Assembly (NCBI RefSeq): GCF_020283565.1 | Contig: NC_060059.1 | Location: 41,160,338 to 41,224,337, forward strand | Direction of reading: 5' to 3' | Source: Trifolium pratense | Lineage: Eukaryota; Streptophyta; Magnoliopsida; Fabales; Fabaceae | Length of the DNA stretch: 64,000 bases | Shown: piece after piece, positions 2,849 to 34,657 of the stretch | How the letters are laid out: every line of letters starts with the position of its first letter | How positions within the stretch are numbered: position 1 is the stretch's first letter | The notes under the pieces: model-generated | The model's database searches: none | Seen by the model: the letters and a program-made list of their open reading frames with translations, nothing else | What the model was told of the DNA's origin: nothing | Made by a program: the position numbers and the translations under genes

Positions 2849-2892
<44 letters not shown>

Positions 2893-3060
2893 TTGATTGA
2901 TTGAAATTTGAAATTTGAATGAATGAATTGTTGTTGTTATTGAAACCTGTGAAAAAGCGTGCGATGTAAGAATTAAGAAGTTGGTTGGTTATGTTGTTAA
3001 GAAGAGGGAGAAGAGAAGAGGGTATCGACGTTGGGAATCTGAGAATGTCTGTGAGGAACA
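1751..3060 (-). other. 5' leader of the membrane-protein gene: leader exon, ~1-kb leader intron and short uORF
   Basis: A leader exon probably lies between about 3060 and 2892 and ends ATCAAG|GTTTCT. The leader intron would run 2891-1853, with acceptor TTGTGCAG. The second exon then has 102 nt of leader (1852-1751) before the main ATG at 1750. This leader contains a seven-codon uORF (MVFWNC then stop) about 55 nt before the main start. No spliced transcript was seen, and the transcription start is not located. Apparent ORFs here, including a Ser-Leu run, come from the GA microsatellite and from intron sequence. Confidence 0.5.
2851..2889. repeat. (GA)n microsatellite
   Basis: About 19 uninterrupted AG/GA dinucleotides. 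On the gene's strand this is a (CT)n tract starting a few bases inside the leader intron of the membrane-protein gene. CT-rich tracts near plant 5' leaders are common. Confidence 0.95.
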
Positions 3061-3206
3061 AAACAATACAACAATGGCATATTCTTTTCTCTTTTTAGTT
3101 TCTTAACTTCATTCATTCGCTTTCGCCCAAACCCCACAACACCCCCAATACACAAATCAAAAGCCAACCACCCTAATTTTATTTTATTTTAAATAGTAAA
3201 TTTGGA

Positions 3207-3258
<52 letters not shown>

Positions 3259-5047
3259 GTGTAATAAAAAATTTAAATCTGGATATTTGGAAGTTTTTTA
3301 TGGAAAGATTGGATATTAATTAATATTATAAAAATTGGATGGTAAATTGTATCAGCCATAAATATTTTTTTTTTATAAGCCATAAAATCTCTTACCCTAA
3401 ATTTTCTTTATACAATTTTATAAAAAAAAAAAAAAATCTATATACAAAATAAGAAAATTTATTTATACTTAAATACCATACAATTTCCTTTTTTTTTACG
3501 CAAATACCATACAATTTCTAATTGATCAGAAAATGAGTTTGATTCATGGGTAAAAACAATTTAAAAAGGCCGAATTATTCGGATTAAGTAGACTCGGATT
3601 TCATTCAATATAATTTTTGAAATATTGTACTTATCTTTCGACCAAATTTTAGATTATTATGGTCATTTTTTCTCTGATATCAAATAATTAATATAACATG
3701 TAAGAAAATTACAATAGAAATATAAGTAGACATAGTAAAAGAATGTTACACAAACAACCAATAATATTTTATCATGTATGGTTATTTTGAAACTACTTAT
3801 ATGACATGAAAGAGTGACGATTTCTAATTAGATATTCGTGTAAACTTTCATTACACCGACTGCTTACCATCTTTAAACTTTAGAAATATATAAACTTTTA
3901 TTTCTTCTGCCTTATATAATAAGTGTCATCATCAATATTTATAACAAAAATTGAAATAATTGTCATCCATCTATCTTTTTAAAAGATTTTTGTTGTAAAC
4001 AATAACTTCTTTTATCCTATAAAATAAACTTCTTTTAAAGGATCTTTTGAAAAGTTAATCATATTAATTTAATAATAAATTTCTTTAATGTATTTCTTTT
4101 TATGAAATAATTTATTGCATTTTACATCCACACGTTACTCCTCTATGAATTAATGTTTTTCTTTCTGTATTTAGCAAAACGTTGTAAAGAAAGAGCACAA
4201 GGATTAGATTGTCCAAAAATCTAATTCAGAGTTCTTATCCAAAAATAATAAATACTCTAAATTCTAATTCAGTTTCGGCGGCTTCCTTCCGCGTCTTTTC
4301 TTTCCGTCCAACTTGCGTTGTTTCAATCACCGTCCTCAACTTCCACAACAAATCGGTTAGCATTTATTTCATTGGGCTTTATAGGCCCAATTATGCAATT
4401 GTGGAATCACAACCAAGTCCAGCATTTTAGCTGAGGACATAACTTCTTTTCTCACCTCACATTTCTAAAAAAAAAATCACACATGTGTGGAAGTATATAT
4501 ATCTTTTTAAAAAAAAAATCACACATTTCTAACTTTTACTAAACATGTTTCTGGATAGTATAAAAATGATATAATTAAGATGTATTCTTTTATATGTTTC
4601 AATCCGTATAGTTTTTAACTTAAAGAGTCATACTAACTAATGTGTTCCTAGAGCACACGTTAAGATATATAAACATAGAAATTTTATATCAAATAATATG
4701 AATTGTTTAATTTTTTTAAAAAAAAAACACAAATTTTAAGAAAATGTTTGCATGTTAATTAACATTTTCCTAACTTAAAATACACCAATTTTTTTTTTTA
4801 CATATAACAAACTTTTGAGAAAATACGAATAACATGTAAGAAGATACACTTTGTAGGGAATTAAGAAATCAACCGGGGAGAAGAGCCCGAGAAAATATAC
4901 GCACATGAGGAAAAAGGGCAGTAAATAAATATGTTGATTTGTTTGATGTTTTTTACACAAAAATAATCTTCATTCAAATGACAAAATAAAAATAATACAA
5001 TTAAATGACCAAGTATATATTATCCATAAGATTTGACTCAATTGATG
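3061..5047. other. AT-rich intergenic DNA, no gene seen
   Basis: The right-hand flank and likely promoter of the leftmost gene. It holds an (AT)n microsatellite at 3219-3256 and several A or T homopolymers. ORFs here are short, with no recognisable domain. Confidence 0.7.
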
Positions 5048-5486
5048 ATGTTAGTATTATTATTATGTTGAACATCTTCACTTGAGTATAACTTAAAACC
5101 ATACGGCTCTCTGTTTGTGAGTTTTAAGTGATGTTATCACATCTAAAAAAAAGGACCAAATGTGGGGACATTTTCTATCCATTTTGCCAATGTGGAATTG
5201 CCAAACCAAAATCTTAATCAACAAAATCCAACAAATTTCTTCCATGTATGGGTGATGGTAAAAAATATGTAAATTCACAATCATTAAATTTCTCTATCTT
5301 TGAAATAAAATATTTGTCGGTGTTTCACTCATGTCTATTGCAGTTGATCTCTAACATGGTCAATTCAACCACATGTTAACAAGTTATTTGTGACGATGTG
5401 AGGAAGATGTTGGATTTAATGGTATACAAACTTTTTACTCAAGATACGGTACCAGCAAAACAAGTCTGTCTTTCTCATGCATCTCA
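5048..5486 (+). repeat. 440-bp direct repeat, left copy
   Basis: Starts ATGTTAGTATTATTATTA and runs to about CTTTCTCATGCAT. It matches 9491-9944 almost throughout, with only scattered substitutions and small A-run indels. The pair brackets 4 kb of other repeats, which looks like LTRs. However, I see no tRNA primer site after this copy, no purine tract before the right copy and no matching target duplication, so an LTR identity is not supported. Confidence 0.85.
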
Positions 5487-5862
5487 TGCATTTATTGCTT
5501 TTTTGGATAAAAAATATATTTTATTTCTAACTTTTATGGTGAATAATTTTTTTAACTATATTTTACAATTTAATTTTGTGAATAATAAACATAAATATAC
5601 ACTATGAATATTCAATAAATAGACGTAACTCAAACTCCGATGATGAACTCAGTTTCATAATAGTAATGGCGGATCAGTGGATGATGACTCTTTGAACCTT
5701 CAAATGGTGGAGTTTCACTGAAATTCACGTCTTCGTCCCCATTAGTGAGAGTGTGCCTACAAACAGTTTGGCACTTAATTAAGTTAGTAAGATCTTATGT
5801 CGATCTATAGTTTGAGAGGTTGACTTCAAATCTATATATGCAAAATGTCTTTTAGCTAGATC

Positions 5863-6968
5863 TCACATAATATAAGTTATTTCATAGAAAAGCTTTTACA
5901 ATTGAATGAAATATGTGATTGCGATTTGCGGTGATAACATGACGCCATCTCCTGGTGCTTCATTGGTTACCGGTAGTCCTACGTGTGAAACTTGTGGCAA
6001 TGCTATAATTGAGGCGTCCTCTAGCGGTAATATCCAACTTCACAAGGAAATTATGATCAATTCTATTGTTTCGACCTTTAACCACTAGTCATGCATTGTT
6101 GCCCAGAGCGTGGTAACAAGTCATCTGCAACTATTCCTACCAAATGGTCCTTAGTAAGCAATCAATTCATTATGGGGATGCAACTAACACACAGTTGCCT
6201 ATGAATTTGTCTTTGAAAACTAAAGGAGACCTAACTGGTTCTGAATATTTCAAAGAAAATATAACTGATGATTTTTGTGTATAATGATTGTTCATATAAA
6301 CTCCAATGATACGTTAATAGCTATATATATATATGCATGGCGATTTTGTTGCATCTGCGGCTGCTAATTTGGCCCTTCTTTCTTTATAGAATTCTAGATC
6401 AGAGGATACAACCTCAAGTCAAACACGTGACCATCTAATCTAGAATCCTCTAAAGAAAAAACGGTCAAATTAGCATCGACAAATGCAACAAAATCACCAT
6501 AATATAGTTATTAATGTATGACTGAGGTTTATAGGAACAACATGTATACACAAAATCATTTGTTCTATTTCTTTTGGACTTTCAAGAACTAGTTAGGTCA
6601 CCTTTAGTTTGAAAATATAAATGCATAGGCATCCCTGTATCAGTTGTAGGCCCATAATTAATAAATTGATTGCTTACCAAGTACCCCTTAACAGTAATAG
6701 ATGTAGATGTTTTGTTACCATGCTTTAGGCAATACATGGCAGACTGATGGTTAATAGACTAAACAACTGAATTCTTCACAGTTCCTTATTAATTATGATA
6801 TTCCTATTAGGGGACTCATTGGTTATAGCATTTGCCACCGGTTTCACAAGTTAGACTCCTGGTAACCGATGAATTACCAAGAGATAGAGTCATATTATCC
6901 TACAGATTCCATTCACATATCCCAACTAGTTGTATAAATTGTTCTATAAAATAACTTATATTGTGGGA
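5863..6968. repeat. Foldback repeat, copy A (diverged inverted repeat)
   Basis: Left arm about 5863-6418 and right arm about 6419-6968 are imperfect reverse complements, by eye about three-quarters identical. For example GTTACCGGTAGTCC...CTTGTGGCAATGCTAT on the left returns as the complement of ATAGCATTTGCCACCGG...TCCTGGTAACC on the right. The turn lies near the CCTCAAGTCAAACACGTG stretch. The left arm holds a short open frame (GDNMTPSPGASLVT...SPTCETCGNAI) that I do not recognise; the right arm's version is broken by stops. Copies B and C lie at 16147-17170 and 14841-15500. Confidence 0.75.
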
Positions 6969-6997: not shown

Positions 6998-9486
6998 TAA
7001 ATTAAAGAGTAAAAAGTATAATTAGTAATAGAAATTATAGTAAAACATAAAATGAAATTATAGCAATATATTAAATTTTTTTGACTAATTAGTAATAAAT
7101 TTATAATTTTTTTCAACTAACATATTATTGAAATTATTATATGGAAGTTATACAATACTAATACCGATTTCCTTAAAAATAAATAGTACAAATTTTAAAC
7201 TTTAATTATTAGTCAATAATATAAATATAGGAAAATGATAAATGATATTAATTAATATATAATTTTTTTGAACTAAATTAGTATTATATTATTTTATTTT
7301 GACTGAATAGTTTTCTTTTTATCGATTTGTAGTATTTTGATAAAAATATGTAAAGCATTAAAATTATATCTTTTTTTATTATTTAGAATTTCTTCTAAAT
7401 TAATAGCAAATTGCTATGTTTTTTGTTTATAGAATTTATACCATTGTAGTAATATTGTCTTCCTAGAATACAAAATAATACATATTAAAATTTAATTACC
7501 GATGAGTAATATTTATTGTCTTTCTGTGTAAAAAATATAATTTATTGCTATTTTAATTTTTTGTGTTGAATATTATTTTCTTTTATTTTTTTTTACGATT
7601 TAATTTTGTGAATAATAAAGATAAATATATTATAGCATGAATATTAAAATAAATGGACTTAACTTATTGTTTTGGCGGATCGGTGAATGATGAATCTTTG
7701 AACGTTTTGATGGTGGCGTTATTTGGCCGAATCCACCTATTCACCTCCGAAGATGGGTGTGTACCTGCAAATAATATGACACTCAAGTTAGTGTTTGCTA
7801 GTGGTGCTAAAAAAAAATCCCTCGCTATGGAAAATTTTAGATCCGGTGACCGGTGTCGATCTAGAGTTTGAGAGGTTTAACAACTTGAAATCTAGATCTA
7901 GGAAATGCCTTTCAGATCTGACATGATTGGGGGACCGGAAATTAAAATTATCTTAAGATTGAATTAAAAAATTATCATAATCAACAAAGAAAGAGAAAAC
8001 AAATATACCTGGAATGATGGTTTACAAAGGTGAAGGTGGACGAAGGTGGAAAAAAGAAGTAATCAAATCGTGGAATGGAAGTTCATGGTGAAATGATTCA
8101 ATGACGAGTTGTTGATGGAGGGTTCTACAACTATTGATTAAACTAGAGTTGTGCAAGAAAACTAGGGCACATAAAAATAAGAAATAAAAGGCTGCAATTA
8201 GATTTTTTTCATAAAATTCAAGGAAGCAAGCCACCCTTTAAATACTTAGATAACCCTAATTGATTTGGGCCAAACAATTGGGCCCTGGGCCACTTTGAAG
8301 GAAAATAACGATGGCTTCTCATTAGGCCCCCCGTGTTTCTTTTTCACCCCCTTTTAGCGCGCAAAAAAAAATTGGTTTAAGAGTGAAAAAAAAACATGGG
8401 GGGCGGGAAGAGAGCCTATCGAAAATAACAACAATGAAAATATTATAATTAAAAAATAAAATTATGCAGTCACTTAGAATTAAAGTTTTTCATCTACAAA
8501 GGTTTCTTGATTATTCTCTTGGGCTTGACATGATCTAGCCCACTATAAATAGAACATTGTCTTCGAGGTTGTGGTTGAAGTCCAATTGCGGTCCAGCAGA
8601 AAGCCTAAATTGTTTGGTGAGGAAGATCCCACAGTGTGGCCCACATGCTGGGTGAGGAAGGGTGTGAAGCTGACTTGGCCTTGGTTTCAAATGCAGCTGT
8701 CTATTTGACCATCTGTTTTTGGGTGATAAAATGTGTTATATTTCAAGGTTGTACCCTGGACTCGAAAAAGCAATCATGAGCAAAGACTTTGTGAGCTGTC
8801 ATTAAAGTGAACAATGACTATATTTGGTGTAGCATGCAATACTTGGTGGACAAGATACACAACGCAAACTGCATCTATGTAGCATGCAATATCACACTAG
8901 AAGAGCAAAAGTTCGAGCTACAACATAATACAAAACTAATTTTAATCTCATTGGTTTTCAAGCTATTATTTTATCACTCACACTCCATCTCTATTACTAT
9001 ATACTTGGGGTCTAAATATTCATTGAGTGTACTGGGCATATTTCATTTATGCTTCTCATATAGTTTGAGTTTCTTGTTAGCTTAGATCCAAACAAACTTC
9101 ACATATATTTGTTAGAACAAGCTCAAGTCAATACTTAGTTATTCTTTGAGTGTTGTAAAGTTAATTGAAACTAAGGTAGATAAGCTCTTAGAGCCCGAAG
9201 GTCTAGATATGAGTTTACATCATAATTCAAGATCTGTTGTATCTCAAGATTATAACACTGACAAACTTACAAACGTGTGGGCTGAACGTAGCTCAAGTTT
9301 AAGGGTGAACCATGATAAGTTAGTTGCGACTAAGGTAGATAAGCTCTTAGAGCTTGAAGGTCTAGATATGGGTTTGCATCATAATTCAAGACATGTTGTA
9401 TCTCAAGATTATAGCGCTGACAAACTTACAAACGTTGGGAGTGGACATAGCTCAAGTTTAAGGGTGAACCATGATAAGTTAGTTGC
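6998..9486 (+). repeat. 2.5-kb duplicated segment, copy A
   Basis: Collinear with 22457-24870: the same order of an AT-rich stretch, a short open frame beginning MDLTYCFGGSVNDESLN, a reverse-strand frame beginning MACFLEFYEKN, a G/C-rich hairpin at about 8310-8421 (GGCCCCCCGTG...CATGGGGGGCGGG), and the 53-codon tandem repeat. None of the frames matches a family that I know. The shared order shows one ancestral element copied as a block. Confidence 0.8.
8310..8421. repeat. Short hairpin MITE-like repeat
   Basis: Ends are complementary: CTCATTAGGCCCCCCGTGTTTC against GAAAAAAAAACATGGGGGGCGG, with an internal TAGCGCGCAAAA motif. A second copy lies near 23690-23795. The motifs (CACCCC, TAGCG-GCAAAA) recur in the MITE at 13752-13937, so the three are probably one family. 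Confidence 0.6.
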
Positions 9487-9489
9487 GAC
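9171..9489 (+). repeat. 159-bp (53-codon) tandem repeat, two units
   Basis: Two units start at 9171 and 9330 (CTAAGGTAGATAAGCTCTTAGAG), exactly 159 bp apart, so the reading frame is kept. The translated unit has the core KVDKLLELEGLDM, LHHNSR, VVSQDY and DKLTN, then SSSLRVNHDKLVAT. The frame runs through both units without a stop (9146-9514). I do not recognise the repeat as a known domain. Confidence 0.85.
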
Positions 9490-9490
9490 A

Positions 9491-9944
9491 ATGTTAGTAT
9501 TATTATTAGGTTGAACATCTTCACTTGAGTATAAACTTGAAACCATATAGTTCTCTGTATGTGAGTTTTAAGTGATGTTATCACATCTAAAAAAGAAAAA
9601 AAAAAAAAAAGACCAAATGTGGGGACACTTTCTATCCTTTTTGCCAATGTGGAATTGCCAAACCAAAATCTTAATCAACAGAATCCAACAAATTTCTTCC
9701 ACTTATGGGTGATGGTAAAAAATATGCAAATTCACAATCATTAAATTTCTCCATCTTTGAAATAAAATATTTATCGGTGTTTCACTCATGTCTATTGCAG
9801 TTGATCTCTAACATGGTCAATTCAACCACATGTTAACAAGTTATTTGTGACGATGTGAGGAAGATGTTGAATTTAGTGGTATACAAACCTTTTACTCAAG
9901 ATATGGTACCAGCAAAACGAGTTTGTCTTTCTCATGCATATCAT
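9491..9944 (+). repeat. 440-bp direct repeat, right copy
   Basis: Same orientation as 5048-5486, with a longer A run after ACATCTAAAA. Similarity ends about CTCATGCATATCA. Confidence 0.85.
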
Positions 9945-12871: not shown

Positions 12872-12965
12872 CCCTATGTACACGCATCAAATATAAAAAC
12901 ACATTACACATTCAAATATCAAATTCTCTTCTTTCAATTAAACCTCTCATTCTCAAAATTATACA

Positions 12966-13295
12966 ATGGCCAATTCTAAGCTTGTGTTCACAATAAGTTC
13001 TATTCTTCTAGTCTTAACTTTTTTCAGTTTATCTTTTTCAACTCTTGGAAGGCCCCTAATGAAAACAGAGAACAAGTTGGAGTACAAGCCAACATACGAA
13101 AACATAGTCCGTTGGCACCGTAACATGTTAGAAAATGAAGCCGTGAATACAGTAGATTCACATAATTCATATGACGGTGTTGAGGGTGAAAAATTGATCG
13201 ATGATTTCCGGCCAACGGATCCAGGTCATAGTCCCGGTGCTGGTCATTCCACTCCAACAATTCCCATGGACACCAACGTGCCTCCAAAGGCTTAA
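12966..13295 (+). CDS. CEP: CEP (C-TERMINALLY ENCODED PEPTIDE) hormone precursor
   Basis: A one-exon, 109-residue secreted precursor. Residues 1 to about 28 form a signal peptide (SSILLVLTFFSLSFSTLG). A variable acidic region follows. Residues 80-94 read DFRPTDPGHSPGAGH, a canonical 15-residue CEP domain with prolines at domain positions 4, 7 and 11 and the terminal SPGAGH. A short tail (STPTIPMDTNVPPKA) would be trimmed. Known family biology: the mature peptide is secreted, proline-hydroxylated and read by CEPR-type receptor kinases. In legumes CEPs limit lateral roots and promote nodulation in response to nitrogen. There is one CEP domain, whereas some family members carry several. The ATG is the first after the TATA-like site. 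The family is secure; which CEP paralogue it is cannot be told. Confidence 0.93.
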   Translation: MANSKLVFTISSILLVLTFFSLSFSTLGRPLMKTENKLEYKPTYENIVRWHRNMLENEAVNTVDSHNSYDGVEGEKLIDDFRPTDPGHSPGAGHSTPTIPMDTNVPPKA

Positions 13296-17362: not shown

Positions 17363-20300
17363 ACTAGGGGTAAACCCGTGCGTTGCACGGGTTCGATTAA
17401 AATACATAATTAAAATATTCTTATAAATTAAAAATAATAATTGTGATAAGTATAATCACACATTCGATTAAAATACATTGTTAAATACTTTTTACGATAT
17501 GATGTATATTCAATTATGTTTAAAAATAAAAAAAGTTGTTATCAAAATTAAAATAATTTTTATTGAAATGATGTATCATATTGTATTTTAATTTGTGTCA
17601 TCGTATAAAATCTTAGTTTTCATTATATGAGTTGCAATTTTAGTCACAAATCACTTTGTTTTTTTTATTTTTAATGTATCCCTTATTTATTTATTTTTAA
17701 TAAGAGTTGGAGGTCATACATACTTATACTTGGTGAAATTATTGCTCATGAGTGATGTTGAACTAAGAAGTATGGTGGTTTTGACATTTTTTATCAGGTG
17801 ATCTCGTGTTCTGAAAATTACCTATCAAATAGCAACATTACTGCTTACTCCCTTCTATACAATTTAAGATGCCAAATAACTTATCTACTTACCTCCCTCT
17901 CGTTCTTATCAATTATTCACTTGGTGAAATTTTATCCCGATTTTATTAGTCTCGATTTTTTTTGTCTATTGTTTGTTTTTTTTATTTTTACTATGAGGTT
18001 TTTCTCCGCTCATTTTGCTTTGAATTTTTTTATTTAATAATCTTTATTCGGATTTAAACATAAGAAGGTTATTTAAAAAAAAATTGTTTAATATTAACCT
18101 ACATTGTAGATTTGTGTATATTAAGGACAATTAATATAATTTTTAGTGAATATCTCTTAATATTCATAAGTTTGAAGAGGTGCATTATATTTTATTCTAA
18201 TAGTGTAATAGCATGAGAACTTAATTTTCTTTTTATGCATCGTGGTAGTATAGTCGCAACTTGCTTTGCTTTCTTACTTTTTTTTTCTTACAGTTGTTTT
18301 TTTACTTTTGTATATTAGATGTAGTCATGCTTGCCTTGTGCTGATATATTGACTTTGTTGAGCTGAGTTTTATTTATTATTAAAATTTATTCTAAATTTT
18401 TTTTTGATCATTTTTTTTCATTTGTGCAATTTTTCAACAACTTTTTTCCTATACTATTAATAAAAAAATGTAAATAATTGATATTTTAATAAAATAAAAA
18501 TAGTTTGTAACTTACAACTTGCACCAATACATACACCATTTTCCAATCAGCAACATATCATTCTTCATAACACTGGTAACGATTGAAAATCATGAAATTG
18601 CAATGAATATTAGTGTTAATGGTGAGGTTGTCTATAAAACCATTTGTCTTCATCTATGTGTTCATATATAAAAATAACAAATATGTAAATTTAAAAACAC
18701 AATGGATAAAAAGTTGGTAAAAGGTGATCTACTTACTTGTTGACATTGTTTTAAGTGTAGCTGATAAGTTAGGAAATTATTCAAGGGATTGACAAAACTC
18801 ACTCAAGTTCTCCTTCAAATCTTCCTTACATTCTGAATATGTTTTTGAGATAAAAAGGAAAATAAGCAAAAAATACCACTTGAAAGATACAATTGAAAAT
18901 AATGGATTCATGAATCCATGATTACAGACGAACAAAAATAAAACTTTAGTTACATAGGTAAGAAATCAATTCATCATTTTTGACACCTACCCATCTGGTG
19001 ATTCCAAATCAACAGATTTATCTGTTCCATTGTTATCTTTGAACAATTTGAACCTTAACAAAGTAAGAAAAATGGACATGGATATTAAAAATAGAATAAG
19101 CTTTAAACTTGAAAACACACCAAAATAAAACCTACAATATGAATAGTTGAATACCAAAACATGTATGACTCTTCTTGCAAAAGTCTCAATATATATATAT
19201 GATAAAATCTCCATGCTAGCTAGTATCTATATATACTTACTATGTCTATGGTTTCTTAATTTTATGAACGTATATGTTTATTATTGAAATTCTTTGAGTC
19301 ACGTAGCATAATAACTTCCCTAATTATATTTATTGACCTTATGTATTCATTTCATAAGATGTGGGTAGATTGATTTTCCGTATTCTTTTTAATTAAATAA
19401 ACCCGTGCAACTTTGATTAAAAAGCACGTTTAAAATATTTTTTAAAATAAAATATAATAACTACGATAAGTATAAATACATATAATTAAATTTAATATTA
19501 GTCATGAGAAATATTGAAATAAGCTCATGTTATAAAATGTGATTCATATATGTTAGTTTTATCTTTTTCATCTTTTGATCTCATTCCTTGAAAGTACATA
19601 CCAAATAGCATAGCTTCTTACTCTCCTCTATGCAATTCAAGATCTTTCATATTTAACTAAATTTTAGTTCTTGTGTTGATATATCGACTTCTTTTAGAGG
19701 TTTTTTTTTAGTAATTTGCTTAATTCTTTCTTTCTTTTTTTGTTTAGATTTTTTTCTTTTGTTTAATTATGTCCCTCGTTTTTCTTGTTGTTTAGTTGGT
19801 CTTTTAATCATTTAATAATATTTAATTGCGAATTTGTTTTTAGTTTGGTTTAAGAACTTTCAATAATGACTTTCAAAGTACTCCAAAATAGAAATGAGAG
19901 AATGAAACAAAAAAATATATTGATTATTGGATATAAAAAAGAGTGAGTGAAATTAAATAAATCTCCAACATTGATTTATGATTCATCTTTGGTGGTTTTT
20001 GTCTTTCATCCTTTGGTCTTTCTTGTAAAATTACGCACAACTTGACGGAACTATTAACTTTACTCCTCTATGTAATTTAAGGTTTCTCATATTTATTGAA
20101 ATCTATGGTCATCCATAAACAAATTAGTATTCTTCATCTTTTAATTGAAATTGAAATACTACTTCAAATTGTAGACAATATTATATGGTGATATATTGTT
20201 TCACTAATTTTCTTGTTGTGAGATTCATATATTGGCATCATGCTTTATTTTGTATTTTGTTCTGACTTTTGCATACTTGTATTGCGCATGACACAGAGGG

Positions 20301-22273
20301 ATAAATATCCATATGAAGGGTACGAAAAAAGAGCTTCATCGGAGGATTCTGAAAATTCCTTACACTTGGATTGCTCTCAGTCTCGCGTCAATGTTTCCGA
20401 TGGTGATTTAGATGCTAATATCTGTCATAAAAAAGGCACAGTTTGGGACCTAATTCCTGAAGTGAGAGAAACTTTGTATCCTCATCAACAGGAAGGCTTT
20501 GAAGTCATTTGGAAAAACTTGGCAGGAATTAGGTCCCAAGTTTTTAAGACTGATGCTTCCTACCAAGTTTTTCCAAATGACTTCAAAGCCTTCCTGTTGA
20601 TGAGGATACAAAGTTTCTCTCACTTCAGGAATTAGGTCCCAAACTGTGCCTTTTTTATGACAGATATTAGCATCTAAATCACCATCAGAAACATTGACGC
20701 GAGACTAAGAGCAATCCAAGTGGAAGGAATTTTCAGAATACTCCGATGAAGCTCTTTTTTCGTACCCTTCATATGGATATTTATCCCTCTGTGTCATGCG
20801 CAATACAAGTATGCAAAAGTCGGAACAAAATACAAAATAAAGCATGATGCCAATATATGAATCTCACAACAAGAAAATTAGTGAAACAATATATCACCAT
20901 ATAATATTGTCTACAATTTGAAGTAGTATTTCAAATTAGACTAACAAATTATACCATATCGCTAAAATAGGAAGCCTTAAATATTTGTTGAATCTGCAGA
21001 TTGTCCCACATTCTAGCAATGCACACTTTTATACTACTTTCATTTGTCGCATTGTCGAGGTTATTGATCTCCAGCTCCTGTTGGCCTGTAAGGAAAACAA
21101 ACCAAGATTGTATATGTATAAAGGGTTAAGTCTTATGTAAGTGGAAATATTGCATGTGAAGAGCATAGGTGTATGAAATGTAAGAACAATATGCTTACTT
21201 ATTGGCATTACTTTGAGAAGCAGACATGATGTGGTAACTCTCTTAGTTGTGTAATTAAAATATTTCTTGGGTGTGAAAGGTGATGAGTATAGGAGGAATG
21301 GACACATTTATATAGGAACCAATTAATGTATGTTATGAATATAGGAAGAGTTAGGCTTGTTCAAAAAAAGAATATAGGAAGAGTGTTAGGATGTGACCCA
21401 AAAAAAAATACAAAGAGTTTGGCTATAGAGAGTCACACATGCAGTGGTTACAAATATTAATTACTTGGAGTTACATGATAAAGTAAATGGGGGAATGATT
21501 AAGTGGGAGTTACATAATAAAGTAGATGAGAGAAAGACAAAAGAGCCACAATTGATATGTTGTTATACGGACCACCAAAATGTTATATATCTTTCATTGT
21601 CAACAAAAAAGAATTCAATAATAGAAAAAAATAATCTTTTAGATCATCATAATAATTAAAGAACTCAATAGTAGGAAAAAAAAAACTAGTTCAGAAAAGA
21701 AAATTGTGTTGTAGATCATAATAAATAAAATAAATAAATAGTTGAAAATAAATTTATAAAATGTTATAATTTCAAACAATAAATAAATATAAAATAATTG
21801 AACAAATAAAAAAAAATTACATTTAATTATTTTAAATTTTGCATGAAATTTTTTTTGAGGTGCCACATCATCATCATATGAAAAGTAAAAAAAAAGTAGT
21901 ATAAATTTTTTATTAGTGAAACAAACAAATTATTTATTTTAGATTTTGCATTAGAACACTATTGAGTATGTAAATAGTTATGCAATGCAACATGATGAGT
22001 AAAAAAGAAGAGTATTCCGTATAAATTTTTTTATGGATTTGGTAGCCATAATTTGTAAGAAAGTTTTTTTTATGATAATTGTAAGAAGTTATATAGTGAT
22101 AATTTGATATATTGATAATTAAAATGATTTGATTAAAGGAGATGATGAAAAAGTTTTTTAATAGAGATTGTAAACTTTTCTTATAGAGTGCCACATCATC
22201 AAAATACTTGATTGTGAGTAACTCAACATTCCTTTTACTTGTAAATAAATAAATAAATAAATAAATTAAAAGA
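17363..22273 (-). mobile_element. 4.9-kb Helitron carrying a captured gene fragment
   Basis: Read on the minus strand the 3' end is a 9-bp stem hairpin (AACCCGTGC / GCACGGGTT, 17373-17393), then a short spacer and CTAGT, the Helitron 3' signature. The 5' end begins TCTTTTAATTT at 22273. Flanks are an A-T type junction. The flanking sequence CTTCTTCTAAATTA...TAGTATATTATTATATTTT is continuous, within a base or two, in the related repeats at 15650-15690 and at 7395-7425, which act as empty sites. No Rep/helicase protein is visible, so the element is non-autonomous. A degenerate internal copy of the 3'-end region occurs at about 19390. It contains the CLASSY-like inverted repeat at 20151-20934. 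Confidence 0.82.
20151..20934. pseudogene. CLASSY/DRD1-like SNF2 gene fragment arranged as a 378-bp inverted repeat
   Basis: Left arm 20151-20528 and right arm 20557-20934 are reverse complements with six mismatches and no gap, around a 28-bp loop. The left arm encodes, after an apparent intron end (ATGACACAG), residues RDKYPYEGYEKR, an acidic linker, and GTVWDLIPEVRETLYPHQQ followed by EGFEVIWKNLAG. That last segment is what I recognise as the stretch before the SNF2 ATPase motifs in plant CLASSY/DRD1 proteins, which help Pol IV and Pol V act in RNA-directed DNA methylation. No ATPase motif is present, so the fragment is not a working remodeller. The right arm has a TAG in place of a CAG codon, so the left arm is nearer the source. 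The retained intron edge shows DNA-level capture. The open frame that runs on through the loop to 20635 is chance read-through. Confidence 0.75.
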
Positions 22274-22456: not shown

Positions 22457-24870
22457 GTGAAATTAAAGAGTAAAAAGTATAATTAGTAATAGAAATTATA
22501 GTAAAACATAAAATGAAATTATAGCAATATATTAATTTTTTTTTGACTAATTAGTAATATATTTATAATTTTTTTCAACTAACATATTATTGAAATTATT
22601 ATATGGAAGTTATACAATACTAATACCGATTTCCTTAAAAATAAATAGTACAAATTTTAAACTTTAATTATTAGTCAATAATATAAATATAGGAAAATGA
22701 TAAATGATATTAATTAATATATAATTTTTTTGAACTAAATTAGTATTATATTATTTTATTTTGACCGGATATTTTTATTTTTATCTATTTTTAGTATTTT
22801 GATAAAAATATGTAAAGCATTAAAATTATATCTTTTTTTTATTATTTAGAATTTCTTCAAAACTAATAGCAAATTTCAATGTTTTTTGTTTATAGAATTT
22901 ATACCAGTGTAGTAATATTGTCTTCCTAGAATACTAATTTAATTTTTTGTGCTGAATATTTTTTTCTTTTACTTTTTTTTATGATTTAATTTTGTGAATA
23001 ATAAAGATAAATATATTATAGTATGAATATTAAAATAAATGGACTTAACTCATTGTTTTGGCGGATCGGTGGATGATGAATCTTTGAACCTTTTGATGGT
23101 GGCGTTATTTGGCAGAATCCACCTATTCACCTCCGAAGATGGGTGTGTACCTGCAAATAATATGACACTCAACTTAGTGTTTGCTAGTGGCGCTAAAAAA
23201 AAATTCATCGCTATGGAAAATTTTAGATCCGATGTCGATCTATAGTTTGAGAGGTTTAACAACTTGAAATCTAGATCTAGGAAATGCCTTCCAGATCTGA
23301 CATGATTGGGGTACCGGAAATTAAAATTATCTTAAGATTGAATTAAAAAAGTATCAGAATCAACAGAGAAAGAGAAAACAAATATACCTGGAATGATGGT
23401 TTACAAAGGTGAAGGTGGAAAAAAGTAGCAACCAAATCGTGGAATGGAAGGTCATGGTGAAATGATTCAATGACGAGTTGTTGATGGAGGGTTCTACAAC
23501 TATTGATTAAACTAGAGTTGTGCAGAAAACTAAGGTACATAAAAATAAGAAATAAAAGGCTGCAATTAGATTTTTTTTCATAAAATTCAAGGAAGCAAGC
23601 CACCCTTTAAATACTTAGATAACCCTAATTGATTTGGGCCAAACAATTGGGCCTTGGGCCACTTTGAAGGAAAATAACTACGGTTTCTCATTAGCCCCCC
23701 CCCCCCATCTTTCTTTTTCACCTCCTTTAGCGCGCAAAAAAAATTGGTTTAAGGGGTGAAAAAGAAACATGGGGGGCGGGAAGAGAACCTATCGAAAATA
23801 ACAACAATAAAAATATTATAATTAAAAAATAAAATTATGCAGTCACTTAGAATTAAAGTTTTTCATCTACAAAGGTTTCTTGATAATTCTCTTGGGCTTG
23901 ACATGATCTAGCCCACTATAGATAGAACATTGTCTTCAAGGTTTGGTTGAAGTCTAATTGCGGTCCAGCAGAAAGCCCAAATTATTTGGTGAGGAGGATC
24001 CCACAGTGTGGCCCACATGTTGAGTGAGGAAGGGTGTAAAGCTGACATGGCCTTGGTTTCAAATGCAGCTGTCTATTTGACCATCTGTTTTTGGGTGATA
24101 AAATGTGTTATATTTCAAGGTTATACCTTGAACTCGAAAAAGCAATCTTGAGCAAAGACTTTGTGAGCTGTCATTAAAGTGAACAATGACTATATTTGGT
24201 GTAGCATGCAATACTTGATGGACAAGATACACAAGGCAAACTACATCTATGTAGAATGCAATACCACACTAGAAGAGCAAAAGTTCGAGCTACAACATAA
24301 TCCAATACCAATTTTAATCTCACTAGTTTTCAAGCTATTCTTTTATCACTCACACTCCATCTCTATTACTATATACTTGGGGTCTAAATATTCATTGAGT
24401 GCACTGGGCATATTTCATTTATGCTTCTCATATAGTTTGAGTTTCTTGTAAGCTTAGATCCAAACAAACTTCACATATATTTGTTAGAACAAGTTCAAGT
24501 CAATACTTAGTTATTCTTTGAGTGTTGTAAAGTTAATTGAAACTAAGGTAGATAAGCTCTTAGAGCTTGAAGGTCTAGATATGAGCTTACATCATAATTC
24601 AAGATCTGTTGTATCTCAAGATTACAACACTGACAAACTTACAAACGTATGGGCTGAACGTAGCTCAAGTTTAAGGGTGAACCATGATAAGTTAGTTGCG
24701 ACTAAGGTAGATAAGCTCTTAGAGCTTGAAGGTCTAGATATGGGCTTACATCATAATTCAAGACATGTTGTATCTCAAGATTATAGCGCTGAAAACTTAC
24801 AAACGTTGGGAGTGGACGTAGCTCAAGTTTAAGGGTGAACCATGATAAGTTAGTTGCGACTAAGGTAGAT
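22457..24870 (+). repeat. 2.5-kb duplicated segment, copy B
   Basis: Collinear with 6998-9486. The upstream piece 22274-22456 matches 15672-15858, and the join at TTTTGTG|AAATTAAAG shows a deletion that removed the foldback between them. It contains the MDLTHCFGGSVDDESLN frame, the MACFLEFYEK reverse frame and a hairpin near 23690-23795 with a long C run. Confidence 0.8.
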
Positions 24871-25010: not shown

Positions 25011-25239
25011 AATTTTTTTGACAAACCAATATAAGTTATTTGAACACCAATTTTCAAACAAAAACATGACAATCTACGTATCGGTGTCACTTTTTGTTGT
25101 TTTTTTTTAAAATTTTGCACATTTCGGGAACCATGCATAGAAAGAGATAGAATAACAGATGTCATATTTTTGTCAATAGAAAGATGTTCATATAACATAG
25201 CTCCTATAAGAATATTCAGGGATGAAGTGGAGATAATTC

Positions 25240-26440
25240 TTGCAACACCACTTGTTGGCTCAGTCGGAGAAGATAAAGTGGTCTGGGAGGAGGGAAAAAA
25301 ATGGGTGTTATTCAGTGAAATTCGGGTATAAGTTAGCTATGCATTATATTATACGTAGTGACAAATATCATGTGGCAGAGAATTGGAATGGTATATGGCA
25401 AGCTCAAGCCCCACATAAAGCACAACATTTGCTTTGGCATTTATGTGGAGGTTGTCTCCCGACCCGTTATCGATTGTTACAGAGGCGAGTGGAGTGTACT
25501 CTCAACTGTCCCGTGTGTGACGAGGAGATTGAGAACGATCTTCACGTGTTCTTTAACTGTTCAATAGCTCATGACAGTTAATGTGCAACTGGTCTTTCTT
25601 CGGTCTTAAATAACAACACGTACCAGCAAACTACTGCTATGGATCGTATTTTCGCTTTGTGCAACAACGAGAATAGTGATAATGTTGGAAGAGTGGCTAT
25701 GTTACTCTGGTGCATTTGATACAATCGTAATGATAAAATTTGGAATGACAATGTCCAGATGTCGAGCCAAATTGGAAGACATGTCTTTGATGCTTGTAAT
25801 GATTGATACTCAGTTCATAAACTAGAGCATAACAGTGGGGAGTATGGCTACAGAACCAGACCTATTACAGTGGATAAAACCCAGGCTGGGTAAAATGTAA
25901 CGTTGATGTTGCTTTTGTTACTGGCTCTGGGAAAACTTCGGTGGGATTGTGTTTTCGTGATAGTAATGGACAGTTCATGGCTGGTATGACGTAATGGTAG
26001 CAGTCTGTGAATTCAACTTTAGAGGGAGAAGCATGAACATTTTTTTTTTTTGAAGAAGCTAAAATGAGATATATTAACAAACAGCTTTCTCCGCACAAGG
26101 TGTGCCAAAGTAGACTAAAAAAGTTTACAATTACTTTTAGCTATGCAAGAAGCTAGACATAGAGGATTAAATTGAGTTCAATTTAAAAGTGAATCGAAAG
26201 TGTTGATGCTATTCACATGAAGTTAGAGGCAATTCTGAGTTTCTTTCCATTGTTCATGATATTGTTATTTTTATATCATTTTTTCTAAATCTTGAGGTGA
26301 AGTTTGTTAGGAGACAAGCGAATTCGGTGACTCATACTTTTGCTATAGCGGCCAATTCTTGGGTTAACTTCCATAGATTTGAGATGATTTCCTTATGTAT
26401 TGAACATTTAATAGTTAATGAAATGCATTAAGTTTGGTTG
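25240..26440 (+). pseudogene. Degenerate LINE remnant: zinc-binding RT region and RNase H-like domain
   Basis: The frame at 25240-25581 reads like the zf-RVT region that ends plant non-LTR retrotransposon reverse transcriptases: WNGIWQAQAPHKAQHLLWHL, then PTRYRLLQRR, CPVCDEEIENDLHVFFNC. Further on are broken pieces of an RNase H-like domain: CNVDVAFVTGSGKTSVGL with FRDSNGQF at 25895-25980, STLEGEA near 26015, and VRRQANSVTHTFAIAANSW near 26310-26365. Stops and shifts separate the pieces, and the insertion at about 26035-26145 splits one of them. It is a dead retroelement and not a host gene. Confidence 0.8.
26035..26145 (-). mobile_element. Small poly(A)-tailed insertion inside the LINE remnant
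   Basis: Begins on the plus strand with a T run followed by GAAGAAGCTAAAATGAG, which looks like the reversed 3' end of a LINE. It interrupts the RNase H-like frame between GGAGAAGCA and TTAGCTATGCAAGAAGC, which read together in related elements. The exact right edge is uncertain. Confidence 0.5.
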
Positions 26441-29900: not shown

Positions 29901-32900
29901 ATTAATTGCTTCTAATTATGTAAGGATGTTCAAATGTCAATTTGGTCCATTAGTGTGCGGCGTCATTTAAAAAAAAATTCTGATCAGGCAAGTATCTGTC
30001 TAATGAAAGTTCTTGGATTCCTTTTATCATTAACTTCCCAACTTGTCTTGGCTTTAGATCCCTTAAATTTGTTTTTGTCAAAACATGTCTCAAGTTTTTT
30101 ACTGGTATTTGTTTTTTTCATTGCATGCTATTGAAATAGTTTGAAATATCTGTTCCAGCTGTGTATTTATTTGTCCAAGGTTATACAATTCAGATTCGAA
30201 TAGTGAATCCAAACATCTATTTCCTGAATCATAAATTGAATCTTATTATGAATATAATATACACAATAAATTTGTTTTCCTGTTTCCTTATTTAGGAGGC
30301 CAGTCAAATGGCACATCCAGCCAATCTGAAGCAGATTCTACAAACACAACTGTGAGTTTTTCTGCTCTTATATTAGTATGTTTTCTATGTTAGCAACTTA
30401 CCATTTATTACTAATTTTAAATAGCTAATCAATGATTAATTATAGATATTTGTTGGAGGACTCGACCCTAATGTTTCAGATGAAGATCTTAGGCAGACAT
30501 TCTCCCAGTATGGTGAGATAGCATCTGTTAAGATACCTGTTGGAAAGGGCTGTGGTTTTGTGCAATTTGCAAACAGGTACAAGTTCTGAACTATCTCAAT
30601 TTTTTTAAATAGATCTGCTTTTAAATTTCTTCATATCACCACACAATATTAACATTATAACAACCTTTTCAGAAATAATGCTGAAGAGGCTTTGCAGAAG
30701 CTAAATGGGACAATGATCGGCAAGCAAACCGTTCGTCTCTCTTGGGGCCGCAATCCAGCAAATAAACAGGCAATCTCTCTCTCTCTCTCTTACACACACA
30801 GTCCCATATTCTCATTATGATTACATTAGGTCTGTGAATCTATTGAAACAAGTGTTGTAAGCAGTTTCTATGTTTATGTCATGAAGAAAAATAATGGAAC
30901 CCACGTGTTGAGTAGATTTTAATGGAAACTAGCAGGACACCCGTGCGTCCGCACGGGAGTCGCGGCTTTGCCGCTCCTCACTTGGTAACATGAAATAGTA
31001 ATTTATTGGGAAATAGATTAAAAGATAAAAGAAAATAGAAGTGATATAATATTTGGTAAAACAAAATAAAAAAAGAACAATGGTAAAACCAACCATCACC
31101 AAAAAAACCTTAGGTATCCCTATATTAAATACTCCCTCCGTCCCATTTTATAAGATTTTCTTTGACTAAATGCACTATTCATATATCTTGTTTTGATCGT
31201 ATTTTTTTAACAGTATATAAATGTAAATATTATCATATAAGATCTTGTTTGATTTGTTTCGATGAATATTTTTAAAATATCAAATTTCTATAATTTTTAC
31301 TAATAGAGAATTAAAGATATTCGTAATCGAAATTATGTATTAGCATACGTGCAGTGGTCAATGAGGTCTTATATTTTGGGACGGAGGGAGTATATGAGTA
31401 TAATATATAGTCCCCTAAAAAATATTAAAAAATAGACAACCTTATTAATATGTTAGTGAAAATACACGTCTTACAAAAATCATCAAAATAATTAGTTCAC
31501 TGTATTAAATATGAGTATAACACACAGATTCCGCAGAAATTACACAAAAGATTAGGTTATTGTATTGATATATGAGTATAAATATAGGTATCACAAAAAA
31601 TAGTAAAAAAATGGAAACTTTATTAATAAGAGTAAAAACATAAGTCATGCATCCCCGATGTTACTAAAAACACAAGTTCCGTGAGAATAATAAATATAGA
31701 TATGACCAATATATTCCAAAAGAATGGTCAATGATGACAAGTTAATTTTTTGTTGCAGTAAAATAAAAGAGAATTTATTTCTCAATAAATTAGTCCTTAT
31801 ATCAACAACAAAAAATATTAAAAAAAAAACTTCTAAAAAAATGTCATTTATTTTTCAACTATTTAAGAACATGAAATCTTATTAATAAGAGGAAAAACAT
31901 ATACAACTTTATGTCCTCGTATTAATATATGAGTATAACTCTTAAAATTATTTAAAATATATACAACTTTATTGATATATTAGTAAAAATATAAGGCCCG
32001 TAGATATAACCAAAAACATTAAGTTCCAGTATTAATATGAATATAACCCGTAAAATTATTTTTAAAAAATTGACGACATAATATATTAGTAAAAAAAAAT
32101 AAACAACATAATGCGTTACTAAAAACGTGTGAATAAATAAAGATTTTGCAGAATGTATTGATGGCCAATATATTCCAAAAGAATGGCGAATGATGAAAAA
32201 TTAATTTTTTGTTGCTGTAAAATAAAAGGGAATTTATTTCTAAAAAATTAGACCTTATATCAACAACAAAAATATTCCAAAAAAAAAAAACTTCTAAGAA
32301 AATGTCATTTATTTTTTAACTATTAAAGAACAGAAAATCTTATTAATAAGAGGAAAACATAGGTCCCTCATAATCACACAAAAGATTATGTCCTCGTATT
32401 AATATATGAGTATAACTCTTAAAGTTATTTTTTTTTTTGAAGCAAATATATAGATAGATTCAAAAAAAACCAGTTTTGTACAAGGTGATCAGCCAGGATC
32501 CAACCATCAAACGGAGAAGGAAAACAAAAGAGAAAGCTAAACTAAATAAGCAAATGAGCAATATGCTCCCTAAGTTTAGGACTTCTCCAACCTCTATAAA
32601 CTATAGTGTTGATAATATCTTCATCTATGTTTGTATTATATACTTGATTACCAAAACAAACATCATTCCTATATTTCCACAATGTGTAAACTGTTTCAGC
32701 AGCCGCACTTTTGAGCAGTTGGGCCTTCCACCCTTTTCCTTTGCTAGATCTAGTGATCCATCTTAATTCCTCATTCCACTCCATGGGGACATGATCGACT
32801 TTCAACCACCTGAGAACCTTATGCCAGATATTTTTCAACTCAATACAGCCAAAGAAAAGGTGGTTAATAGTTTCATCATTGTGACAGAAACAACACGTCA

Positions 32901-34657
32901 GGTTGACTATCACACCAAATTTCTGAAGCCTATCTTTGGTTGCCAGCCTGCAATGACACGCTAGCCAGAAAACAAAAAGCGCTCTAGGCCGAGCCATATT
33001 TTGATACATAGTTTGTCTCCAACCTACCACAGCATAATCCACTCTCAACATTTGATAAACTTTCCTTGTGATAATCTTACCCTTCATGTTGTTCCACCCC
33101 TGTACCTGTTGGAGCGAGTCCCTTTGCTGAAGGATAGCTTTAAGAATCCATGAAGAATTCTGCTTTACAGGCATAGTCAACTCTTAAGGCCCGTAGATAA
33201 CTCTTAAAGTTATTTAAAATATATACAACTTTATTAATATATGTGTAAAAATATAAGGCCCGTAGATATAACAAAAAAAATTAGGTTCCCGTATTAATAT
33301 GAATATAACCCGTAAAATTATTTTAAAAAAAATAAACAACATAATATATATTAGTAAAAAAAAATGAACAACATAATATGTTACTAAAAAAACACAAGTT
33401 CCGTGAGAATAAATATAGATTCTGCGGAATGTATTGATGGTCAATATATTCCAAAAGAATGGCCAATGATGACAAGTTAATTTTTTGTTGCGGTAAAATA
33501 AAAGGGAATTTATTTCTCAAAAAATTAGTCCTTATATCAACAACAAAAAATATTCCAAAAAAAAAACTTCTTAAAAAATGTCATTTATTTCTCAACTATT
33601 AAAGAACATGAAACCTTATTAATAAGAGGAAAAACATAGGTCCCTCAGAATTCTCACAAAAGATTATGTCCCCGTATTAATATATGAGTATAACTCTTAA
33701 AATTATTTAAAATATATATAACTTTATTAATATACGTGTAAAAATATAAGGCCCGTAGATATAACAAAAAAAAAATTATATTCCCGTATTAATTTTTTGT
33801 TGCGGTAAAATAAAAGAGAATTTATTTCTCAAAAAATTAGTCATTATATCAACAACAAAAAATATTCCAAAAAAAAAAAACTTCTAAAAAAATGTCATTT
33901 ATTTTTCAACTTTGTATTTAATTCTTTTTTTTTTTTTAACTAAACGTATCATTCGCGTGCACAACTAAAGAGACTAATCCCCTCGATATGACAAAGAATT
34001 CTTATTGTTTTAGTTAGTCTCATGATTTTTTAAGGGAGTTTTTCAATTTTTTCCCCCACCATATTCTCATATTAAATTAATTAAATTTATTTAATTGATT
34101 TAAAAATTCAAATTTAACTTAATTGAATATTGATTTCTTTCAATGTGGAGTGTGTAAACCACCAACCACCCATTAATGGGAAGTTTTTTTTCTACTAACT
34201 TCTAGAAATTAAAATAGGAATAACCATCATATAATAAGAAGTTTTTTTCTAATAACTTTTAAATTAAGACACAAAATAACCTTAAACTAAATGATGTGTC
34301 AAAAAATTAAACATGGGCAAATTGGGGATTTCATTCGTACTTTCTTTTCTTATATAGTAGATGCACTATGTTTTAAAATGTTTTTACACCGACATCCAAT
34401 GATAATTTTTTTAAAGTTCTAGAGTACTAGCTTGTTTCCACTCTGTTTGTCATGAAATTGAATTTGTGCTGATTTTATCTCAATGATGATAACAGCTTAG
34501 GTTTGATTTCGGAAGCTGGGCTGGGCCATATTTTCCATCCCCTATTTATGACGGATACGGATATGCAATGCCTTCTCCTCATCATGATCCAAGCACGTAC
34601 CCTCTAGCTTATGGAGGTTACCCCATTTATGGAGGCCACCAACAACAAGTAAGCTGA
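26970..34657 (+). CDS. RBP47: RBP47-type RNA-binding protein with three RRM domains
   Basis: Six exons join in frame: 26970-27335, 29086-29551, 30296-30351, 30446-30576, 30673-30769 and 34496-34657 (1278 nt, 425 aa). Residues 1-95 are Gln/His/Pro-rich low complexity. RRM1 (about 98-178) has RNP2 LWIGDL and RNP1 EGYGFVEF; RRM2 (about 190-268) has LSIFVGDL and KGYGFVRF; RRM3 (about 296-368) has IFVGGL and GCGFVQF. A Gly/Tyr/Pro-rich tail ends GGHQQQVS. The order matches plant RBP45/RBP47 poly(U)-binding proteins, which bind nuclear poly(A)+ RNA and enter stress granules. RRM1 is split by intron 1. The last intron uses a GC donor (AAACAG|GCAATC) with AG acceptor at 34494-34495; no GT fits the frame nearby. 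It also holds the Helitron at 30928-34361. Intron 1 carries a MITE. Confidence 0.95.
28634..28795. mobile_element. 162-bp MITE in RBP47 intron 1, 10-bp target duplication
   Basis: Ends TATGAAGCACGGACA and TGTCCGTGCTTCGTA are inverted repeats with one mismatch near the tip. A perfect 10-bp duplication GCTTAATGAT flanks it at 28624-28633 and 28796-28805. Duplication length suggests a Mutator-type element. Confidence 0.85.
31132..31390. mobile_element. Stowaway-type MITE inside the Helitron
   Basis: Starts CTCCCTCCGTCCCA and ends TGGGACGGAGGGAG, with TA on both sides. These ends are the classic Stowaway (Tc1/mariner-related) terminal repeat. Length 259 bp. Confidence 0.85.
32431..33196 (-). mobile_element. 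5'-truncated LINE with 19-bp target duplication
   Basis: On the minus strand the element ends in a poly(A) tail (T run from 32431) and is flanked by a perfect 19-bp duplication, ATAACTCTTAAAGTTATTT at 32412-32430 and 33197-33215. About 13-16 bases between the coding part and the right duplication (CTCTTAAGGCCCGTAG) copy a motif of the surrounding Helitron repeats, so the 5' junction carries filler from the target locus. This nests a LINE in a Helitron in an intron. Confidence 0.85.
32542..33180 (-). pseudogene. C-terminal LINE reverse transcriptase fragment (zf-RVT region)
   Basis: A 212-residue open frame with the zf-RVT signature: WRQTMYQNMARPRALFVFWL, CHCRLATKDRLQKFG, CCFCHNDETINHLFFGC and a Trp-rich tail. 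The reverse transcriptase core and endonuclease are missing, as expected for a 5'-truncated insertion. The frame is unbroken, which suggests a recent insertion. Antisense to RBP47. Confidence 0.85.

Follow-up and report, generated by a model that had tools for sequence, protein, structure and literature searches.

A CLASSY3-like hairpin carried by a Helitron family of Trifolium pratense: a candidate source of siRNAs against its parent gene

What, if anything, does a transposon gain from carrying a long, near-perfect inverted repeat of a host silencing gene? The question arises from a 64,000-nt stretch of Trifolium pratense NC_060059.1 (hereinafter the window, whose positions serve as coordinates throughout). 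The initial annotation described there a Helitron-borne hairpin of a CLASSY/DRD1-type gene, with 378-bp arms, six mismatches, no indels and a 28-bp loop, and suggested that it might produce siRNAs against its parent gene or represent a young step toward a MIRNA-type gene. A repeat search of the window yields the inverted pair 20136-20528 / 20557-20949, and scripted comparison bears out the hairpin as described: the clean arms are 378 nt each with 6 differences and 0 indels, the loop comprises 28 nt, and the 15 nt immediately beyond the arms contain 6 further differences. The window holds one other inverted repeat with arms >300 nt (47101-48564, 91 %, 594 nt apart); of the two, only the CLASSY hairpin has a short loop. 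Its layout is as follows:

20151..20528, plus strand: left hairpin arm, gene-sense on the plus strand; 20196-20528 equals the parent gene (333 nt, 100 %)
20151..20195, plus strand: outermost 45 nt of this arm; non-gene DNA, from filler and the Helitron body
20196..20296, plus strand: 3' end (101 nt) of CLSY3-like intron 2, acceptor included
20297..20528, plus strand: beginning of CLSY3-like exon 3, where the SNF2 domain is entered
20529..20556, no strand: loop built of inverted fragments from that exon, with short shared words at the joins
20557..20934, minus strand: right hairpin arm, gene-sense on the minus strand
20933..20936, no strand: junction lacking ~470 bp retained in other CLASSY copies; position ambiguous by a few bases

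The predicted RNA fold has an energy of -688.8 kcal/mol, whereas 20 shuffles average -195.7. In a transcript of the minus strand, G:U pairing accommodates 3 of the 6 differences, leaving 3 mismatches per 378, whereas a plus-strand transcript has 1 G:U pair and 5 mismatches at these sites. Missed adapters in long reads can give long near-perfect palindromes, and a fold-back read might thus have been assembled as such a structure. This is extremely improbable here: there are 6 differences between the arms, rearranged filler occupies the loop, and three further places, two of them forming one segmental duplication, have related hairpins whose loops differ and which bear private changes; moreover, the outer 45 nt of the arms join Helitron sequence.

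The carrier has the hallmarks of a Helitron:

17364..22273, minus strand: non-autonomous Helitron, 4910 bp, ends compared with other family copies
22272..22273, minus strand: 5' terminus TC, at 22273, host A adjoining
17364..17391, minus strand: 3' terminus, a CCCGTGC-AAC-GCACGGG hairpin and then 11 nt ending in CTAG, host T adjoining

The element begins with TC and ends with CTAG, in agreement with the 5' TC / 3' CTRR pattern, and its GC hairpin (CCCGTGC/GCACGGG) lies 11 nt from the 3' end, within the usual distance of about 10-12 nt. Both in the window and at locus L010, insertion took place between A and T with no target duplication (A/TC and CTAG/T, the slash marking the junction); the 3' junction of L037, CTAG/G, is unlike the A/T rule. 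The TC end is found in 8 of the 10 loci scanned (missing from L009 and L035; L011 and L012 are one duplication), and the family CTAG end in 4 of the 10 (window, L009, L036, L037), that of L010 having been recognised by eye, outside the scan. The family has at least 92 matches to the 5' 1324 nt, at least 13 of them near full length, both counts being lower bounds from 40 scored candidates out of 471. Ten ORFs of at least 60 aa overlap the element, the longest being 137 aa (hairpin) and 123 aa; judged from ORF length, it is without Rep/helicase, the Pfam scan having covered the hairpin ORF, which gave no match above the cut-off. Termini, A/T target and many copies together uphold the claim that the hairpin is Helitron-borne; what was seen as a single locus is, rather, part of a mobile family.

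CLASSY proteins are generally known as components of RdDM; CLASSY3 guides Pol IV to transposons, and CLSY3 and CLSY4 are active in Arabidopsis ovules. The place of CLASSY in RdDM is also stated in the accessible text of PMC8752594. The genome search for a parent gene, called for by the initial annotation, traced the arms to a single intact CLASSY3-like gene on C6, a different chromosome from that of the Helitron. This gene is open across three exons (1174 aa), contains SNF2 and Helicase_C domains, and has relatives named CLASSY. The captured part consists of the final 101 nt of intron 2 and the beginning of exon 3. Over these 333 nt the left arm and the gene are identical; the right arm bears the 6 differences, within a 330-nt core. 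The hairpin sense frame terminates in ...WDLIPEVRETLYPHQQEGFEVIWKNLAG. A PDB search with the gene fragment alone gave nothing informative; in the protein search, among the best 120 of 553 matches, the fragment's family-named relatives are mostly CLASSY 3 or CLASSY 3-like, in legumes. The source is accordingly a CLASSY-type SNF2 gene, and DRD1, the other half of the original attribution, is ruled out by these named legume relatives, among the matches listed. RNA-level capture is likewise ruled out: because the intron end is retained, the gene piece must have been copied as DNA.

The Helitron carries short filler and ~358 nt of the CLASSY3-like gene, which together replace 753-774 bp of Helitron sequence. 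In five of the 8 CLASSY-free relatives both flanks of the capture point can be aligned, and the flanks are separated by 753-774 bp of other sequence (L026, L032 and L033, in which both sides are not shown, were left out, and the middle sequence was examined for 3 copies). In an alignment of 13 near-full 5' regions, CLASSY copies separate from CLASSY-free ones with support of 0.936. Each arm combines 45 nt of element/filler DNA, 101 nt of intron and part of exon 3, and filler and microhomology junctions mark the capture in the window and in family copies. We infer capture via break repair with template switching; fold-back copying would then have formed the inverted repeat, which would have spread with the Helitron. 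A scenario in which two broken ends each invaded the gene independently was considered and rejected, as the inverted repeat of the window copy includes filler outside the gene. L010 was also rejected as a single-armed ancestor: L010 has an AC before AATTTGAAG in common with the hairpin copies, whereas the CLASSY-free copies do not have it, admittedly a weak argument.

Across the genome there are 9 CLASSY arms at 5 loci. Hairpins account for three insertions, of which segmental duplication has turned one into two loci (L011 and L012), and L010 is a single-armed insertion; L017 is a 131-nt CLASSY scrap. The hairpins outside the window lie at C1:28.10 and C2:48.16/48.20. Within the 10 kb examined, L011 and L012 have no recognisable Helitron 3' body and L009 no Helitron 5' end. 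Arms diverge within a copy by 2.4-4.0 % (junction bases included). Substitutions are more frequent in the arms than in the 5' region (21/1980 vs 15/3673, p=0.005; L012 left out as the segmental duplicate of L011), with C-to-T/G-to-A changes making up 9 of the 21 and 4 of the 15, respectively; a methylation scar in the arms was considered on this count and not adopted. The excess of substitutions speaks against constraint on the arms, and the hairpin is without sign of selection.

Helitrons habitually carry random gene pieces, and the main rival explanation follows this habit: the hairpin would be an inert by-product, a chance inverted duplication made during Helitron break repair, untranscribed or self-methylated, giving no effective siRNA and decaying as a hitch-hiker. 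The excess of arm substitutions, the one-armed L010 and the scrap at L017 all favor this view, as does the description, in the accessible text of PMC9263138, of perfect inverted-repeat hpRNA transgenes as methylated and self-silencing. Three insertions, however, retain hairpins that are ~96 % self-complementary, the window copy has both Helitron ends intact, and a TATA-like box is kept in all 13 copies compared. We regard inertness as a serious contender, if somewhat less than evenly probable. The box belongs to a module on the strand of the Helitron:

21305..21316, minus strand: TATA-box-like CCTATATAAATG, facing the hairpin; kept in 13/13 copies compared
21199..21227, minus strand: first-exon-like ATG...GTAAGC donor; exact ATG context in 12/13 copies
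21086..21090, minus strand: acceptor-like TACAG, followed in the direction of the hairpin by a second exon-like stretch; 13/13 copies

Neither Pfam nor the protein search found relatives of the exon-like module, and an RPA-like identity was discarded on the same grounds. As the module is without known relatives, its promoter role is guesswork from the TATA match.

If transcribed, the hairpin would be well matched to its parent: 526 of its 764 overlapping 21-mers match the gene, 345 of them its exon 3, and 175, 14 and 0 match the paralogues L016, L015 and L014, respectively. According to the accessible text of a review (PMC7544125), Pol II inverted-repeat transcripts can be cut directly to 24-nt sRNAs, independently of RDR. 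We propose that the Helitron's own TATA/first-exon-like module would drive read-through transcription and that the resulting RNA would form a near-perfect 378-bp duplex, from which Dicer-like enzymes would cut 21-24-nt siRNAs with no need of Pol IV or RDR2. Such siRNAs would perfectly match the CLSY3-like gene over exon 3 and intron 2, and one paralogue in part; mRNA cleavage and/or DNA methylation would then lower CLSY3 activity wherever the Helitron is transcribed. Since hairpin dsRNA would feed Dicer directly, the proposed silencing of CLASSY3 would bypass the very pathway that it shuts down. siRNA production against CLASSY3 is plausible, and the whole chain, from transcription through dicing to lowered CLSY3 activity, is the best explanation that we can offer, with about an even chance of being right. 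That the Helitron is a mobile RNAi construct against CLASSY3, gaining a phase of reduced RdDM, possibly in ovules, is a more speculative and rather unlikely extension. The duplex, the 21-mer matches, the promoter-like module, the RDR-independent route described in the review and the miR820 precedent are the points counted for silencing potential.

Conceivably, the hairpin might instead serve the host, its siRNAs methylating the Helitron family in trans, as natural inverted repeats such as maize Mu killer can initiate the silencing of the transposon family to which they belong. We consider this highly improbable: with only ~45 nt per arm being Helitron or filler and the remainder CLASSY gene, the main match of the hairpin is the gene and not the element.

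With respect to the MIRNA question, MIRNA genes are defined by a short precursor and one precise miRNA/miRNA-star pair, and plant MIRNA stems are far shorter than the near-perfect 378-bp stem found here. Rfam gives no family at gathering score; the 10 matches below it are to miRNA models only, as a long hairpin will give. Because of the far longer stem and the lack of a family at gathering score, a MIRNA is not the present state of the locus, and the suggested young step toward one survives as a possible future.

A close precedent is rice miR820, which targets OsDRM2 and is described in the accessible text of PMC3459959 as a CACTA-borne fold-back resembling an exon and intron of that gene and present in five copies. 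In both cases a multi-copy DNA transposon contains a fold-back that resembles exon and intron sequence from an RdDM gene; the rice system involves CACTA, DRM2 and a miRNA stem, whereas clover has a Helitron, a CLASSY3-like gene (the Pol IV side) and a near-perfect 378-bp stem, seen at the level of sequence. Given this precedent, the clover hairpin varies an already known theme. The literature searched, including the accessible text of works treating both Helitron and CLSY, has no description of a CLASSY hairpin in a Helitron. If active, the hairpin would add to miR820 another example of small RNA directed by a DNA transposon against DNA methylation in its host; the step attacked would be the recruitment of Pol IV, and the means a long hairpin for which RDR2 should be dispensable. 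Helitron gene capture would then be shown able to yield counter-defence without any protein. With related copies, an identical parent gene and CLASSY-free relatives at hand, the idea can be put to a direct test in a forage crop whose genome is sequenced. Should the hairpins prove inert, their loops still document clearly how template switching can assemble inverted repeats of genes, the material from which MIRNA genes arise.

MIRNA genes can also be born by inverted duplication of their target gene; the clover arms are likewise long target copies around a short loop, but for a miRNA precursor the hairpin is too long and too perfect, and it is transposon-carried and without a defined mature miRNA. 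Mu killer, the soybean I locus (CHS) and rice Lgc1 are, similarly, natural inverted repeats able to make siRNAs in trans; unlike the clover hairpin they are not mobile Helitron cargo, and they act on a transposon, a pigment gene and a storage gene. Finally, Helitron gene capture with filler DNA is a known phenomenon that the clover element shares in its host gene piece with intron, its filler and its deletion at the break; the difference is that the clover piece is inverted onto itself and has spread in that form.

The hairpin arms lie at 20151-20528 and 20557-20934 and differ at six positions, with no indels and a 28-nt loop (repeat search of the window and a script), confirming the 378-bp hairpin at 20151-20934 claimed in the initial annotation. 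Its predicted RNA fold has an energy of -688.8 kcal/mol, against a mean of -195.7 for 20 shuffles. A transcript of the minus strand, the direction in which the Helitron's promoter-like module reads, would form 372 Watson-Crick and 3 G:U pairs with 3 mismatches, and one of the plus strand 372 Watson-Crick pairs and 1 G:U pair with 5 mismatches. Elsewhere in the window lie a second long inverted repeat (47101-47535 and 48130-48564; 435-nt arms, 91 % complementary, 594 nt apart) and a fold-back at 43106-43348 (98-nt arms, 93 %, 47-nt loop) that adjoins serine carboxypeptidase ORFs.

The two further proposals of that annotation, that the arms derive from a CLASSY-like gene and that a Helitron carries them, both stand in sharper form. 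With respect to the gene, a DNA query with 20151-20540 returned 14 genome matches, namely the CLASSY cluster on C6, the Helitron copies and, on C4, a single short piece (L017); the CLASSY3-like gene at C6:27703328 matches 20196-20528 at 100 % over 333 bases. The coding sequence of this parent gene is open (3525 nt, 1174 aa) and falls into three exons.

Exons of the parent gene (positions in its locus, L013; borders placed by us using splice signals and tblastn with relatives)
2542-3981, exon 1
4173-4328, exon 2
4930-6858, exon 3, with the SNF2 and helicase domains

Among the best 120 of 553 protein relatives, the top three are clover proteins, unnamed or labelled 'SNF2 family', the closest being from T. 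repens (82 % identity), and the first with a family name is CLASSY 3 of Medicago truncatula (67 %). On C6 there are five CLASSY3-like exon-3 matches, one of which contains an internal stop. Another four exon-3 pieces, CLASSY-like but decayed and interrupted by stops, lie in both orientations at G000:C1:16647293-16656563. The captured stretch spans parent-gene positions 4829 to about 5186 and comprises 101 nt from intron 2 together with about 257 nt from exon 3; the retained intron end indicates that DNA was copied.

The carrier, on the minus strand from 22273 to 17364, is inserted between A and T; it starts with TCTTTT and ends with the 3' hairpin CCCGTGC-AAC-GCACGGG, 11 nt and CTAG. Of ten family loci scanned, eight have the TC end, L009 and L035 being the exceptions. 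The CTAG end and its hairpin occur in the window as well as in L009, L036 and L037, the last adjoined by G, not T; the CTAG end of L010 was read by eye. The 1324-nt 5' region has at least 92 genome matches, 13 of them near full length. Because the longest ORF outside the hairpin, 123 aa, is too short for a Rep/helicase, we call the carrier, judged on ORF length, a putatively non-autonomous element. A pattern search located a second Helitron-like 3' end near 30929-30960 on the minus strand (CCCGTGC...GCACGGG...CTAG, followed by T), and a Pfam scan found zf-RVT domains, as in LINE-like reverse transcriptases, at 25237-25581 (plus strand) and 32542-33183 (minus strand). An ORF with an internal repeat (VDKLLELEGLDMGLHHNSRHVVSQDY) is present in two copies, 9116-9514 and 24488-24832, the former with nothing above family cut-off in a Pfam scan. 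A small ORF at 12942-13295, with FRPTDPGHSPGAGH close to its end and no Pfam match, presumably resembles a CEP peptide precursor.

Nine CLASSY arms are present in the genome, at five loci.

Helitron copies carrying the CLASSY piece, with differences from the gene over a 330-nt core
The window (C1:41160338-41224337), two-armed: left arm 0, right arm 6
C1:28.103 Mb (L009), two-armed: 2 and 3
C2:48.165 Mb (L012), two-armed: 4 and 6
C2:48.195 Mb (L011), two-armed: 4 and 6
C1:26.629 Mb (L010), single-armed: 1

L011 and L012, 98.6-98.8 % similar outside the Helitron, are one segmental duplication, which leaves three insertions with a hairpin and one with a single arm. Within the 10 kb examined per locus, the window copy and L010 have both Helitron ends; the 5' end is absent from L009 and the 3' body from L011/L012. 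The C4 piece (L017:4961-5091; 131 nt in all, made up of filler and 73 nt of CLASSY intron, 98 % to L010), which lies close to Helitron-like sequence, is an extra scrap from the same capture. A tandem array of about 120-bp units (L010:519-2474) adjoins the single-armed insertion.

Five of the eight CLASSY-free relatives compared (L023, L024, L027, L028 and L030) align to L010 at both flanks of the CLASSY piece. At the capture point they hold 753-774 bp of other sequence (stretch inspected in L023, L024 and L030), replaced in the CLASSY copies by a short filler, which also occurs nearby within the same Helitron, and after it by gene piece, loop and second arm in that order. The loops are not alike: in the window and L009 they are built of inverted fragments of the captured exon, linked at short stretches of shared sequence, and in L011/L012 the loop is a simple turn-back. 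The window copy goes further: its second arm also repeats filler beyond the gene, its arms include 45 nt of Helitron element plus filler, and it lacks about 470 bp that other CLASSY copies have between hairpin and promoter region. We take these features to reflect break repair in which templates were switched serially, followed by fold-back copying. In an unrooted FastTree phylogeny of the 5' region, the five CLASSY loci split from the eight CLASSY-free ones (support 0.936), as predicted by a single capture.

One arm change is common to the second arm of L009 and to L010, and most L011 changes are common to L012; the others are private. With L012 left out, hairpin arms carry 21 changes in 1980 sites versus 15 in 3673 for the 5' regions of those copies (p = 0.005), a rough comparison because arm changes date from capture and 5' changes from the split of the copies; for the single arm of L010 the figures are 1/330 and 10/1271 (p = 0.48). 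The higher change is compatible with a lack of constraint, with error-prone copying or with methylation; C-to-T or G-to-A accounts for only 9 of the 21 changes, so that no methylation scar is shown. The six changes of the window copy are confined to one arm (p = 0.03), a pattern that would agree, weakly, with its error-prone back-copying.

A TATA-like CCTATATAAATG faces the hairpin from about 370 bp away; beyond it come an ATG with its GTAAGC donor and, further on, a TACAG acceptor. All 13 copies compared have the box, and 12 of them keep the exact ATG context; Pfam and protein searches found no relatives of the exon-like module, and promoter activity is putative. Transcripts of the hairpin would yield dsRNA directly, and a review (PMC7544125) describes inverted-repeat Pol II transcripts that DCL3 can cut into 24-nt RNAs independently of RDRs. 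Of 764 overlapping hairpin 21-mers, the parent gene locus contains 526 (its exon 3, 345), the paralogue L016 175, L015 14 and L014 none. Thus, siRNAs, if made, would match the parent gene and hit the gene for a Pol IV guide; CLSY3 and CLSY4 control Arabidopsis ovule methylation (PMC8752594). Perfect hairpin transgenes are methylated and self-silencing, with methylation persisting in Pol IV and AGO4 mutants (PMC9263138), and this counts against siRNA action on the parent gene. That the hairpin is an inert by-product is a serious possibility, somewhat short of an even chance. Whether siRNAs are produced and affect the parent gene to some degree seems to us evenly balanced, and within the affirmative reading a counter-defence selected in the Helitron is improbable.

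The accessible literature treating both Helitrons and CLSY contains no description of the clover hairpin. Its closest parallel in the sources consulted here is rice miR820 (PMC3459959). Five CACTA copies carry miR820, whose fold-back resembles a stretch of OsDRM2 that extends into exon 2 and intron 3; it yields 22- and 24-nt RNAs, and OsDRM2 mRNA undergoes cleavage. The clover hairpin, its function being putative, follows the same plan and differs in transposon class, in the RdDM gene involved and in its length.
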